This document shows, in pieces, positions 5,259 to 29,048 of a DNA stretch of 34,611 nucleotides (position 1 is its first letter; every line of letters starts with the position of its first letter). The stretch covers positions 1 through 34,611 of the forward strand of contig JAJEAX010000021.1 in NCBI GenBank assembly GCA_022822565.1, written 5' to 3'. Both the position numbers and the translations under genes were made by a program. Under the pieces are notes generated by a model. That model was given only the letters and a program-made list of their open reading frames with translations, ran no database searches and was not told the DNA's origin. Origin of the DNA: Candidatus Latescibacterota bacterium. GTDB taxonomy: Bacteria > Latescibacterota > UBA2968.

Positions 5259-6749
5259 CTAAAGTGCCTTCCGAAGTCGCGCGGAGCTGATATTGAGTTC
5301 ATCTCGATATTTGGCGACCGTGCGCCGCGCGATATTAATGCCCTCTTCTTTAAGAATAGCCGCTATGTGTTGATCGCTCAATGGATCCTGCACGTCTTCA
5401 CCGCCAATGAGCTTTGCAATTTTTTCTTTTACACTTCTGGCAGAGACATCGGCGCCATCGTATCGACTCAATCCTCCATCAAAAAAATATTTCAACTCAA
5501 AAACGCCATGCGGTGTTTGCACATATTTACCATTGCTCACGCGGCTGATAGTCGAAATGTGCATCTGCACCTTATCAGCTACCTCTTGAAGCACCATTGG
5601 CTTGAGAAAACCAGGTCCTCGTTCGAAAAATTGAACCTGATTTTCGACAATACATCGCATGACTTTTAGCATAGTTGCGCGTCTTTGGTGTATCGCATTG
5701 ATAAACCAGCGCGCAGAATTGAGTTTTTCAACGACAAATTTTTTGGTCTCTCGCAATTTTGGATCATCTCGCCCCGGTTTATCCGATTGTCTGAGCAAGG
5801 TGCGATACATTGGACTAATACGCAATTCGGGCAGGGTGTGGTCGGTCAGAGAAACGACGTACTCGTCGCCGATCTTTTGAACTTCGAGGTCGGGAATGAT
5901 ATGATTGAGATTCAATGCGGGTTCGGGTTCAATATTGGGCTTGGGATTGAGCGATGCGAGGACTTCCTCAATAACACGCATATCATCCATACTTGTATCG
6001 AGTGCCAGACTTATCTGGCTAAAACGGCGGTTGATCCAGTCGTCGAGGTGATTGCGCACCACATTTGCAACCAAACCGTTTGTGATATTTTTTTCTTTTA
6101 ATTGAATCAACAAACACTCTTGAAGGTTTCGCGCACCAACACCTACCGGGTCAAATGTCTGGATAATCCCCAAAACGCATTCCACCTTATCGATATTGAC
6201 CCCAAGTTCATCTGCCATTTCTCCTGTCGAACATCCCAAGAACCCATCTTCGCCAATATTGCCAATTAAGTATTCGGCTATGACGCGATCACTCGGCGAA
6301 AGATCCGACATTGTCACCTGTTCTAAAAGTGAATCTCGTAGCGTTTTTGGAGTGGTCCTGTCGTTGTGCCAGTCTTCAGTATTGGATTCAAATTCTTCGC
6401 GGGGACTGGCATACCCGGATTCGTTTAAGTAGTGATCCCAGTCATGTTCATCAAATATGTCTGAATTGAGTGTATCTAAGTCCGGGTCTTCAAATTCCAA
6501 TTCTTCTACGGGTTCTTCATCCTGGTCTTCGTCCTCGGTTTCGTCATCCAGTTCAGCTTTGGGTTCTTCTTGTTCCAAATCCAATGTAATATCTTCGTCA
6601 ATTTCCAGGAGAGGATTGATCTCCAATTCTTGTTGAATTAACTTCGCTAATTCCAGAGTTGGCAATTGAAGCAGGCGCAAAGATTGGATGAGTTGCGGGG
6701 CCAGTTTCTGCTGGAGCAACTGAGATTGTGTGTGATCAAGACCAATCAT
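5259..6749 (-). CDS. rpoN: RNA polymerase sigma-54 factor RpoN
   Basis: N-terminal LAPQLIQSLRLLQLPTLELAKLIQQELEINPLLE, acidic region II, C-terminal RpoN box ARRTVAKYRDELNI. Confidence 0.97.
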   Translation of the reverse strand: MIGLDHTQSQLLQQKLAPQLIQSLRLLQLPTLELAKLIQQELEINPLLEIDEDITLDLEQEEPKAELDDETEDEDQDEEPVEELEFEDPDLDTLNSDIFDEHDWDHYLNESGYASPREEFESNTEDWHNDRTTPKTLRDSLLEQVTMSDLSPSDRVIAEYLIGNIGEDGFLGCSTGEMADELGVNIDKVECVLGIIQTFDPVGVGARNLQECLLIQLKEKNITNGLVANVVRNHLDDWINRRFSQISLALDTSMDDMRVIEEVLASLNPKPNIEPEPALNLNHIIPDLEVQKIGDEYVVSLTDHTLPELRISPMYRTLLRQSDKPGRDDPKLRETKKFVVEKLNSARWFINAIHQRRATMLKVMRCIVENQVQFFERGPGFLKPMVLQEVADKVQMHISTISRVSNGKYVQTPHGVFELKYFFDGGLSRYDGADVSARSVKEKIAKLIGGEDVQDPLSDQHIAAILKEEGINIARRTVAKYRDELNISSARLRKAL

Positions 6750-6752
6750 AGA

Positions 6753-25316: not shown

Positions 25317-25538
25317 TTTTTGTGCCTGAAGAAAAGGAATGTTTTGATCAACGGGCTTCAATATATTGATATGAATAATGAATAAACAAGTAGTTTTGTC
25401 GAACAAGGGCTTGCAAAAATATCTTGCCTTTCCTTTACGGCGGTGTTAAAATTTATCAAGTATAAGTGCCCAGCAGTCAGCAAAACAAGCCGAAAGCTCA
25501 ATCACATAAGCCCGCAATTCTTTCTGCCGAGAAGAATC

Positions 25539-26225
25539 ATGAACGAAAAATCAGATAAGTGGATCACGCCAGAAATTCCGCGTACCAAAAATCCAGATTG
25601 TGATCTCAAACGCACTTATAAGCGCATCTTTCGCATCAGCATGGGGATTGCATTCATCTTGCATGTGGGCATAGGGATGATGTTTCCTACATTCACAGCC
25701 GGCACGCGCAAAATAGAGCGACGCACCATCGTTATAGAGAACGTCGATATACCGGAAACCCGTCAAATTCACCGCGCACCGCCACCTCCACGGCCATCCA
25801 TTCCCATTGCAACCGAAAGCGAGGATGTTCCCGACGACGTCACTATTGAAACCACTGACCTCGATTTCGATAAAGTCGATCTCCACGTGCCACCACCCCC
25901 TGGTGAGGACACCGTAATAGAGGAACCAGAAGAAGAAATACTCGAATATTTCATGGTCGAAGAAAAACCCGTGCTCATCAAGCGAGGAACACTGGTATAT
26001 CCCCCAGTCGCTCTCAGGGCGGGTATTGAGGGCACCGTTCACTTGAAAATACTGGTTGACAAAGCCGGAGTAGTCGAACAGGCCGTTGCTGTCAAAGGCA
26101 AAGAAGTTTTTTACAAAGCGGCCCTTCAGGCCGTTAATCAATATCGTTTTAAGCCAGCCCGTCAAAATGATAGACCTGTTAAAGTCTATCTCGTCATACC
26201 CATACGTTTCCGAATTACTCGGTAA
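25539..26225 (+). CDS. TonB family protein (energy transducer)
   Basis: One N-terminal TM, Pro-rich linker (APPPPRPSIPIA...PPPPGEDTVIEEPEEE), C-terminal TonB domain YPPVALRAGIEGTVHLKILVDKAGVVEQAVAVKG...AALQAVNQYRFKPARQNDRPVKVYLVIPIRFRI. Confidence 0.95.
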   Translation: MNEKSDKWITPEIPRTKNPDCDLKRTYKRIFRISMGIAFILHVGIGMMFPTFTAGTRKIERRTIVIENVDIPETRQIHRAPPPPRPSIPIATESEDVPDDVTIETTDLDFDKVDLHVPPPPGEDTVIEEPEEEILEYFMVEEKPVLIKRGTLVYPPVALRAGIEGTVHLKILVDKAGVVEQAVAVKGKEVFYKAALQAVNQYRFKPARQNDRPVKVYLVIPIRFRITR

Positions 26226-26228
26226 TCT

Positions 26229-26266
26229 AAACACCCCCCGACAAACCTGACGGAGGGTGTTTTTTT
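26229..26266 (+). terminator. Rho-independent terminator after the TonB-family gene
   Basis: ACACCCcCCG-acaaacctga-CGGaGGGTGT stem followed by a T tract. Confidence 0.85.
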
Positions 26267-26308
26267 ATGCGTTTGTGAACTTCTGGTGAGGCTTCGCAGT
26301 CACACCAT

Positions 26309-27049
26309 TCATTTAAGCATTTGCAATTCTACCCACAGTTCCCGATATGCCTGAGTTGCCTTTGAACGCGGCCTGAAGCATGCCACTGGTTGTCTCGCCC
26401 AGCCCATCCGTTCCACATCTGTCGTGTACGGAATTTGAGCATTCAGAAATTTTCCCTCTCGCTCGCCCACCTGCGCGACCGTGTCCTTATGCATTGTTTT
26501 CCGCTGTTCCACCATTGAAAAAAACGACACCAATTTTCCGCGTTTCAACTTATTTTTTTTAAAAAAATCCACCAATTTTTGATGCGTCAACATCGACAGA
26601 GTTGTCGGGATACACGGAACAACCACATAATCGGCCGCCCTGAAAACATGCTCGGCCAGGAGCGTCAGGTTGGGCGGGCAATCGAAAAAAATATAATCGT
26701 ACTCTTTCCGCATCGGCGTCAACAGACGCTTTAAGTAGCTTTTGTTTTTCGCCCGGTCGTCCAATCCCAAATCCAGATTGCGAAAAGACATGGCCGAAGG
26801 CAATAAGTCCAGACCTTCAAAGTCCGTCCCCCGAATATTATTCTCTAAATGCTTGCCCCCCTTCAAGAAACGCTTGCGTCCAAACTTCTTCTTTGCGCGG
26901 ATACGGAAATAAAAAGCCGCAGCCCCTTGCGGGTCTAAATCGCACAGCAATGCAGTAGCACCGGATTGAACCGCTTCATAAGCCAGATTCACAGCGGCGG
27001 CGGTCTTCCCCACGCCACCTTTCATGCTATACAACGCAAAGATACTCAC
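26309..27049 (-). CDS. Orphan ParA/MinD-type ATPase
   Basis: SMKGGVGKTAAAVNLAYEA, LLCDLDPQGAAAFYF, DYIFFDCPPNLTLLAEHVFRAADYVVVPCIPTTLS; no ParB ORF nearby. Confidence 0.92.
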   Translation of the reverse strand: MSIFALYSMKGGVGKTAAAVNLAYEAVQSGATALLCDLDPQGAAAFYFRIRAKKKFGRKRFLKGGKHLENNIRGTDFEGLDLLPSAMSFRNLDLGLDDRAKNKSYLKRLLTPMRKEYDYIFFDCPPNLTLLAEHVFRAADYVVVPCIPTTLSMLTHQKLVDFFKKNKLKRGKLVSFFSMVEQRKTMHKDTVAQVGEREGKFLNAQIPYTTDVERMGWARQPVACFRPRSKATQAYRELWVELQMLK

Positions 27050-27058
27050 ACTCGTTCC

Positions 27059-28588
27059 CTATCGAAACAAATCGCGGTACAAACGAACATTTTTCTTTCC
27101 CGAAAATGTGGCAAAAGCACTGGCAAATTCGTGCCGAACAACCTGCTGCTGGCTGTGCAAACGCGCGATAAGCCCGCCGATAGCCGCAGCGCAAAGCAGA
27201 CGATCTGTACGCCGACTGCGGGACAACACCTCGTTCAAATAGGCCATCAATTCCTGCTGTTGTACTGATAAATCGTTAAAATCCCCCAGATTATCCTGCA
27301 ATTTCTTCATATATCCGATGAGTTTGTTCATCTTATCTTTGGGAAAAAGCGAGGCAAAAAATTCTAACAAATACCGCAATTTTTTGCAATCAATTCGCAG
27401 ATTGTGCAATGCCTCATCCGGCGTATCGTCTCCAATCGCCTGCCCTCTTTTGAGTACCTGTTTAAAACGCTTATAAATAAATTTTCGCGCGAGAGCTATG
27501 GCAGGTATAGCGGAGCCCTTCCCTCCCCGAGACTGTACACCCTGCAAAAAAGCCGCCCATGAATTCATCATGTCCAGATATTCGGGTTTATCGAGAACCT
27601 GCACCATGTCGTTAAGGGCACGCCGACGTTCGCTCTTTAAGCGCGAAAACACGGCGTCCAACCCGGGTTGTAGCGATTGGGGCAACAAGGCGCGATAAGT
27701 CTCTTCTTCGAGCAAATACACGTCCAGATCTCGCAACCGATTGGTCGATCTGTTCAATTGCCGGAACTCATCCTTAAAATGTTCTACGGCATCTTTGGGC
27801 AAAACGCCTTTAATTTGACTCAGCGCTGACCGTGTGCGCCGAATCGCAACCCGAAAATCATGCAGAAATTCCGTATCCCAATCCGCGCGAATACCCGCTT
27901 CATTTTGGCGCATTACATCGTGTAGACATTGCAAAATCTCACCTGTTGCCTCCCTGCCACTCGCATCGCGATTCAGGCCGAGATTGAGCTTTGAAGAATA
28001 ATCGCCCGGCACGCATCCTGCGAGATTCATCACGCGCTCAAATACATCCTCTGCCGCATGTGCAATATCCAACTTCATAAAGCGACGGCGCAAATTCTCA
28101 AAATCGCGTTCATATCCCCGTACGCTTTGCAATGCCAGAGTCGCAACGTGTCCGTTTTCTGTACTGGTATGCGTGAGAAATAACCGAACAACTGTCTTTT
28201 CATCTGTATTCAAAACGCCAAATCCGCAAACCTTCTGCTCCACCTGTGCTCGAAGTAACAGCGCTCGAATAGAGAGCGCGTCCCGCAATGTGTCGCGCAA
28301 CTCGCCCTCTGGGAACATCCACCAGAAGCGGCCTTCCAGATTTTGTTTCATCTCGATCTGATCGTGTACCAAAGGGTATTCACCATCTACAATTCGTTGT
28401 AAATACACCGTGCTTCCCGTTTGTATCAGCGCGAGTCCCTTCCGATACAACCGCCAGTCAAATGTGTCGAAATACCGCACCGTCTTTTCAACTTCAGATA
28501 CATGCAGCAGACGCTCGGGCGCGAGTTTTTCGACCACATCTCGTCCATGCGGATCACTTAATACATAAGTTTCACTGAGCGTGATCAT
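27059..28588 (-). CDS. CHAD domain-containing protein with degenerate CYTH-like N-terminus
   Basis: FLHDFRVAIRRTRSALSQIKGVLP, LNRSTNRLRDLDVYLLEEETYRALLP, ALHNLRIDCKKLRYLLEFFASLF, LQDNLGDFNDLSVQQQEL: conserved His/basic CHAD motifs. Confidence 0.93.
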   Translation of the reverse strand: MITLSETYVLSDPHGRDVVEKLAPERLLHVSEVEKTVRYFDTFDWRLYRKGLALIQTGSTVYLQRIVDGEYPLVHDQIEMKQNLEGRFWWMFPEGELRDTLRDALSIRALLLRAQVEQKVCGFGVLNTDEKTVVRLFLTHTSTENGHVATLALQSVRGYERDFENLRRRFMKLDIAHAAEDVFERVMNLAGCVPGDYSSKLNLGLNRDASGREATGEILQCLHDVMRQNEAGIRADWDTEFLHDFRVAIRRTRSALSQIKGVLPKDAVEHFKDEFRQLNRSTNRLRDLDVYLLEEETYRALLPQSLQPGLDAVFSRLKSERRRALNDMVQVLDKPEYLDMMNSWAAFLQGVQSRGGKGSAIPAIALARKFIYKRFKQVLKRGQAIGDDTPDEALHNLRIDCKKLRYLLEFFASLFPKDKMNKLIGYMKKLQDNLGDFNDLSVQQQELMAYLNEVLSRSRRTDRLLCAAAIGGLIARLHSQQQVVRHEFASAFATFSGKKNVRLYRDLFR

Positions 28589-29048
28589 CGGGCGCACCTC
28601 TACATGCGAGGGTTGCATTTTTGTAACGGTCATCATCGGTCACATCTCGTCCAAACCACGACGGAGGGACAAAGCGCGAACTTTCATCCACGGTCTCAAA
28701 CTCGACTTCTGCCACCACCAGACCCTTCAGGCGGCCGCGGTACACATCCAGTTCAATTACCCATATCCCTTCGTCGATCTCATAGCGCACTTTTTCGACC
28801 CACCTGCCTTCAGTCAAAGGCCAGAGGGTATCAAATTGCGCTCGGCTCAATTCCACCTCGACTTCCGTCCGCTGCACACCTTTGCCCTGTTTCACAGTCT
28901 GATAAAATCGCTCGCCTTTGCGACGCAGCCGAATCTCCGTGCCATCCTCCCCTACCGAGAGATAGCCCTGTGAGATTTCTACGCCCTTACAAGCCGCCAG
29001 ATCCGGCATTTTTCGCACGCAAAACTTCCGCTCAATTTCTTTTGTCAT
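28572..29048 (-). CDS. CYTH domain-containing protein (triphosphate tunnel metalloenzyme family)
   Basis: TKEIERKFCVRKMPDL...GYLSVGEDGTEIRLRRKGERFYQTVKQGKGVQRTEVEVELSRAQFDTLWPLTEGRWVEKVRYEI...VAEVEFETVDESSRFVPPSWFGRDVTDDDRYKNATLA: classic ExExK and CYTH residues. Confidence 0.95.
   Translation of the reverse strand: MTKEIERKFCVRKMPDLAACKGVEISQGYLSVGEDGTEIRLRRKGERFYQTVKQGKGVQRTEVEVELSRAQFDTLWPLTEGRWVEKVRYEIDEGIWVIELDVYRGRLKGLVVAEVEFETVDESSRFVPPSWFGRDVTDDDRYKNATLACRGAPDDHAQ

Follow-up and report, generated by a model that had tools for sequence, protein, structure and literature searches.

What does a ParA-type ATPase do when its gene lies beside one for a CHAD protein, a domain that binds polyphosphate (polyP), and not beside a gene for ParB? 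We address this question for a cluster of three genes for which a sequence-only reading had suggested that the ATPase distributes polyP granules over the nucleoid, with the CHAD protein as the cargo adaptor. A 2025 review of organelle positioning (PMC13052382) describes the positioning of polyP granules as unresolved, says of the use of energy that it ‘remains to be seen’, and names only AlgP, which tethers the granules to DNA passively.

Organization of the locus

The window (i.e. the whole stretch of DNA that was analysed, 34,611 nucleotides of contig JAJEAX010000021.1 from a Candidatus Latescibacterota bacterium) contains a minus-strand operon with the following features:

26309–27049, minus strand: ParA-type ATPase, 246 aa, GTG start (Pfam, motifs, AlphaFold)
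27059–28588, minus strand: CYTH-like + CHAD protein, 509 aa from the ATG at 28588
28572–29048, minus strand: short stand-alone CYTH (triphosphate tunnel) protein, 158 aa, ExExK motif (EIERK) intact
26225–26308, no strand assigned: ParA/TonB-C intergenic stretch with the hairpin-like acaccctccgtcaggtttgtcggggggtgttt, a probable terminator, read by eye

All three of the tightly packed minus-strand open reading frames (ORFs) described earlier were recovered. The overlap of about 17 bp reported between the CYTH and CHAD genes is 17 bp, given a CHAD start at the ATG at 28588, and the gap of about 10 bp between CHAD and ParA is indeed small but measures 9 bp (27050–27058). The CHAD frame is open up to a longer ATG at 28636, which would give a protein of 525 aa; this start is unlikely because two genomes of the same genus have a stop between both ATGs, and we therefore place the start at 28588. 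Pfam matches were obtained for all three proteins (ParA/AAA_31, 5e-34; CHAD, 1e-62; short CYTH, 6.5e-6, above its cut-off), and the short CYTH protein has both the Pfam domain and the N-terminal ExExK motif (EIERK) by which CYTH/triphosphate tunnel (TTM) proteins are recognized. Each of the seven loci of the same genus that were read over their full length keeps the order CYTH-CHAD-ParA, and the short CYTH gene stands beside CHAD-ParA in 7/80 loci of the wider survey described below.

A promoter and terminator scan of the cluster gave counts at the level of shuffled sequence, and the hairpin acaccctccgtcaggtttgtcggggggtgttt was not among its matches. Convergent to ParA lies a gene for a TonB-C domain protein (window 25536–26222); its synteny is conserved within the genus, and it was not found near ParA in loci of the sister family. 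The neighbour cluster ‘c10’ was dropped as an antisense ORF over ParA.

A separate branch of ParA ATPases

The intact KGGVGKT previously noted in ParA is present. Together with DLDPQG and D123, it provides the deviant Walker A motif (KGGxGKT), the signature lysine, and the Walker A' and B aspartates of A/D ATPases, and the residues concerned (K10, K15, D37, D39, and D123) are invariant in 53 homologous ParA sequences. The AlphaFold model (pLDDT 88) has the ParA fold, with Soj structures at a TM of about 0.8; in Foldseek, chromosomal Soj/ParA proteins rank on top (25–26% identity), BcsQ reaches about 14%, and McdA structures reach 16–18%.

ParAs of this subfamily share 46–58% identity across many phyla. 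In a phylogenetic tree, they are monophyletic and stand apart from 16 other ParAs (split support 1.0; stem of about 1.52 substitutions per site); a grouping with ParB-linked ParAs, which had been named as a check on the sequence-only reading, is thus absent. The subfamily is also delimited by a gap in profile scores: among 185 Gammaproteobacteria, 26 genomes match at E <= 3e-63, and the next match is at 5e-40. Specific to the subfamily is a flexible basic loop after Walker A' (aa 48–73; pLDDT about 60), the mean net charge of which (+6.5; other ParAs, about -2) is reversed in sign relative to most of them; this loop could bind DNA or polyP. As regards ATP-dependent binding to the nucleoid, K184, H187, and R219 are conserved and the basic loop is present, but the position that we align with a second conserved Soj arginine is occupied by Tyr or Phe.

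One locus (L049:5992–7674) encodes a fusion of a subfamily ParA with an HAD domain that resembles sucrose-6-phosphate phosphatase (Pfam S6PP, 5e-65). Assignment to a defence system was rejected, the single PADLOC match being weak and covering Walker A only.

Linkage of ParA and CHAD genes across genomes

We surveyed the best 80 ParA loci found among 84,980 species genomes. In 62 of these loci, the gene immediately upstream of ParA is a CHAD gene in the same orientation, and in one more CHAD is convergent (63/80 adjacent); 33 of the 62 same-strand pairs overlap by 4 bp (ATGA), as is typical of coupled genes. The hosts are labelled as Pseudomonadota, Desulfobacterota, Chlorobiota, KSB1, Dadabacteria, Verrucomicrobiota, Latescibacterota, Bacteroidota, and others (at least eight phyla, several of these labels belonging to MAGs and being taken as given). 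Among relatives, CHAD is adjacent to the orthologous ParA in 15/15 and lies within about 1.5 kb of non-orthologous ParAs in 0/15; the single congener without this ParA is also without CHAD. Chance or local synteny is therefore ruled out, since the linkage repeats in many phyla and is missing for other ParAs. Conserved linkage to CHAD, CYTH, or ppk genes had been proposed as a test of the idea, and the survey bears it out. An ATPase gene linked to the gene for a cargo coat or adaptor, as in McdAB-like organelle positioning, is accordingly what is found in the 63 loci.

The 17 loci without adjacent CHAD belong to 16 Methylococcales and kin and one acidobacterium, and 16 of these 17 genomes carry one CHAD of the same type elsewhere, most often beside SixA or PstS. 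Among the 185 Gammaproteobacteria, ParA is present in 16 of the 18 genomes with this CHAD type and is adjacent to it in 15 of the 16 (Fisher p = 1.6e-14 for co-occurrence, uncorrected for phylogeny), and shorter CHAD proteins abut ParA in two further carriers (L139 and L130, the latter with a Pfam match of 3e-29). This CHAD type is lacking in 10 of the 26 gammaproteobacterial ParA carriers, and for several of these carriers the stretch read contains no polyP gene; the association is thus strong but not absolute. Distance matrices of ParA and CHAD correlate at r = 0.79, a value for which the species tree is uncontrolled.

The CHAD protein and neighbouring polyphosphate genes

The protein that the sequence-only reading called CHAD does have a CHAD domain, but the AlphaFold model (pLDDT 91.7) reveals a second, CYTH-like domain at its N-terminus, which goes undetected by Pfam. 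A close relative of the CHAD part is CtCHAD of Chlorobium tepidum (6qv7/6qva, with the polyP complex solved), to which it is 42% identical over the domain. In CtCHAD, mutation of H253, R256, R260, R296, and R418/Y419 weakened polyP binding (PMC6537752). Across 45 relatives, the equivalents of R256, R260, R296, R418, and Y419 do not vary, and that of H253 is kept in 44/45; together with the Pfam match, these conserved contacts mark the protein as a CHAD protein (phosin) with a basic polyP-binding cavity.

In the model, the N-terminal half has a degenerate TTM/CYTH fold. In the CHAD proteins linked to ParA, the first strand has no ExExK, and in the five sequences that do match the pattern the match lies elsewhere; from this loss of the motif we conclude that the domain is probably not catalytic. 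It is no universal dock for ParA either, since the proteins beside ParA at L130 and L139 consist of CHAD only. The CHAD proteins have no conserved basic peptide at the N-terminus like that of ParB or McdB; their N-termini vary in length and are unconserved before the first strand. The contact site for ParA, if any, must therefore lie elsewhere.

A gene for PPK1, PPX/GppA, PPK2, SixA, Nudix, short CYTH, PhoU, or PstS occurs within 6 kb in 28/63 CHAD-adjacent loci versus 0/17 others, and the polyP link postulated for ParA gains in strength from the PPK1, PPX, PPK2, SixA, and Nudix genes nearby. The fullest cluster (L038) reads SixA-PPX-CHAD-ParA-CYTH-Nudix-PPK1, another (L046) reads PPK1-CHAD-ParA-SixA-PPX, and Paracoccus plasmids retain CHAD-ParA-CYTH-Nudix-CYTH. 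Within the taxonomic order to which the window belongs, four genomes have PPK1 as the next gene after ParA, and in the genome of the window itself PPK1 is on a separate contig; at L132, PPK1 and ParA overlap, and no CHAD separates them. PPK1 was found in 17/20 carrier genomes tested.

Possible functions of ParA

An ordinary DNA-partition ParA that came to lie beside CHAD by accident would explain the ParA fold and the plasmid-borne state of some members of the subfamily. The sole ParB of the genome (PF02195), however, is encoded on another contig (C396) beside a canonical Soj, as expected from the earlier remark that ParA has no ParB partner, and because the host thus has its own chromosomal Soj-ParB pair, the cluster ParA is not the segregation ATPase. 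There is no ParB near ParA in any of the 80 loci, so that the adjacent ParB of a ParABS system is missing throughout; the Paracoccus plasmid copies likewise have CHAD, not ParB, beside ParA. With ParA on a separate branch of the tree and the CHAD linkage conserved over phyla, which by itself largely refutes the DNA-partition reading, we find that reading hardly credible. Taken together, the conserved CHAD linkage, the polyP neighbours, the lack of ParB, and the retained CtCHAD contacts make a role in polyP biology very likely, and we are confident from the linkage that ParA works with CHAD and polyP.

Such a role could be that of a regulator or assembly factor of polyP metabolism, with an ATP-dependent dimer recruiting or switching PPK1, CHAD, or CYTH at the granule much as BcsQ does in cellulose synthesis. 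This would suit the PPK1 genes that adjoin ParA without CHAD (L132) or stand beside ParA in the order of the window, the BcsQ-like profiles that score on ParA, and the missing canonical adaptor peptide in the CHAD proteins; yet Foldseek places Soj/ParA above BcsQ, the full ParA motif set including the signature lysine is invariant, and in most loci the partner of ParA is a granule-coat protein and no enzyme, and we regard the regulatory role as unlikely. ParA might also be a passive tether of polyP/CHAD to the nucleoid, or a condensate nucleator, that sets granule size and number without directed movement (i.e. an AlgP-like outcome with an ATPase). The flexible basic loop could bind polyP or DNA, and DNA tethering alone suffices for AlgP to position polyP granules (PMC9239181, PMC13052382), but the entire ATPase site is strictly conserved, the lysine of the sandwich dimer included, which points to a nucleotide cycle and renders a purely passive function quite improbable.

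We consider it probable, by analogy, that ParA positions polyP granules on the nucleoid. ParA-family proteins that have a dedicated cargo-coat partner and an intact ATPase cycle, such as McdA and ParC, are positioners where they have been studied (PMC10241942), and polyP granules occupy the nucleoid region (PMC6537752); nucleoid positioning is therefore the simplest reading. We also incline, if narrowly, to the broader proposal of a widespread ParA-CHAD system dedicated to the ATP-driven spacing and partition of polyP granules on the nucleoid; its cargo would be polyP together with the CHAD coat, and related members may serve glycogen or PHB. In this scheme, the CHAD protein would coat the granule through polyP binding, for which the fold is known from the literature and the residues are conserved here, and ParA, to judge by its intact Walker motifs and signature lysine, would form an ATP-dependent dimer on the nucleoid. 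As in the McdAB system, granule-bound CHAD might then contact ParA, stimulate ATP hydrolysis, and free ParA from DNA, so that granules would travel and spread over a ParA gradient and be divided between daughter cells. The polymer would be made or trimmed by the short CYTH enzyme and, elsewhere, by PPK1, PPX, PPK2, SixA, and Nudix. We infer the part of CHAD as cargo adaptor from gene linkage and from polyP binding by the CHAD fold, no ParA-binding motif having been recognized.

Several observations weigh against positioning. The usual element by which partners contact the ATPase dimer of ParA is a short basic N-terminal peptide (PMC12204374), which was not found in the CHAD proteins; the aligned Soj arginine is Tyr or Phe in ParA; and about one-fifth of the members lie away from CHAD, some of them by glycogen phosphorylase or PHB-related genes. 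Ralstonia CHAD knock-outs were without visible phenotype (PMC6537752), in a strain that may or may not carry this ParA.

Relation to known systems

McdA/McdB resembles the ParA-CHAD pair in that the gene for an orphan, non-ParB ParA ATPase lies beside the gene for a coat protein of a cytoplasmic storage or metabolic body, and in the Brownian-ratchet mechanism, which for ParA-CHAD is proposed only. It differs in belonging to another ParA branch (16–18% identity to McdA structures), in its cargo, which is the carboxysome and not a polymer granule, and in its adaptor, the place of which is taken here by a CHAD protein that binds polyP and has no basic N-terminal peptide of the McdB type. Soj/ParAB systems, the top structural matches, share the ParA fold and ATPase motifs, whereas identity is about 25%, no ParB partner is present, and the branch is separate. 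Phosins and other CHAD proteins (Tumlirsch and Jendrossek 2017; CtCHAD, PMC6537752) have the polyP contact residues in common with the CHAD protein described here, the N-terminal CYTH domain of which is, unlike theirs, degenerate; no ParA partner or positioning role has been proposed for them in the literature examined (including PMC6537752). AlgP of Pseudomonas aeruginosa (PMC9239181) has the same cargo, and presumably the same nucleoid scaffold, but is a histone H1-like DNA tether without an ATPase.

The ParA-CHAD-ppk cluster is known earlier only from Acidithiobacillus, as folD-ppk-parA-CHAD in a single genus (PMC6416229, 2019; PMC10892726, 2024), although an earlier remark elsewhere is possible. 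In those papers, which focus on cAMP or copper resistance, ParA was assigned to the partition of chromosomes or plasmids; they contain no positioning hypothesis and no survey of ParA outside the genus. In the full-text literature searched, outside of which lie preprints and most subscription papers, we found no proposal that assigns a ParA to polyP granules, so that independent work is possible. The cargo class would be new for ParA/MinD positioning, the mechanism still being hypothetical, and the CYTH-CHAD proteins, for which the structure of a polyP complex has been solved and the role has not, would gain a likely function. With an ATPase branch defined, its partner gene and diagnostic sequence features described, and carriers in culture named (including Methylotuvimicrobium buryatense, Methylomonas, Ruegeria, and Oceanospirillum), the question of polyP positioning becomes directly testable.

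Other neighbourhoods of the subfamily

In seven Methylococcaceae loci (L052, L065, L072, L077, L081, L082, and L083), ParA (near 6001–6750) has no adjacent CHAD and lies directly upstream of glycogen phosphorylase, and in three others (L078, L080, and L107) it is found beside an MgtE Mg2+ transporter. A distant member with 39.5% identity on plasmid pMAQU02 of Marinobacter nauticus VT8 (L148, 1673–6747) has genes for acetyl-CoA hydrolase and pyruvate kinase, as well as phbB, next to it, neighbours that hint at a storage-polymer theme wider than polyP.
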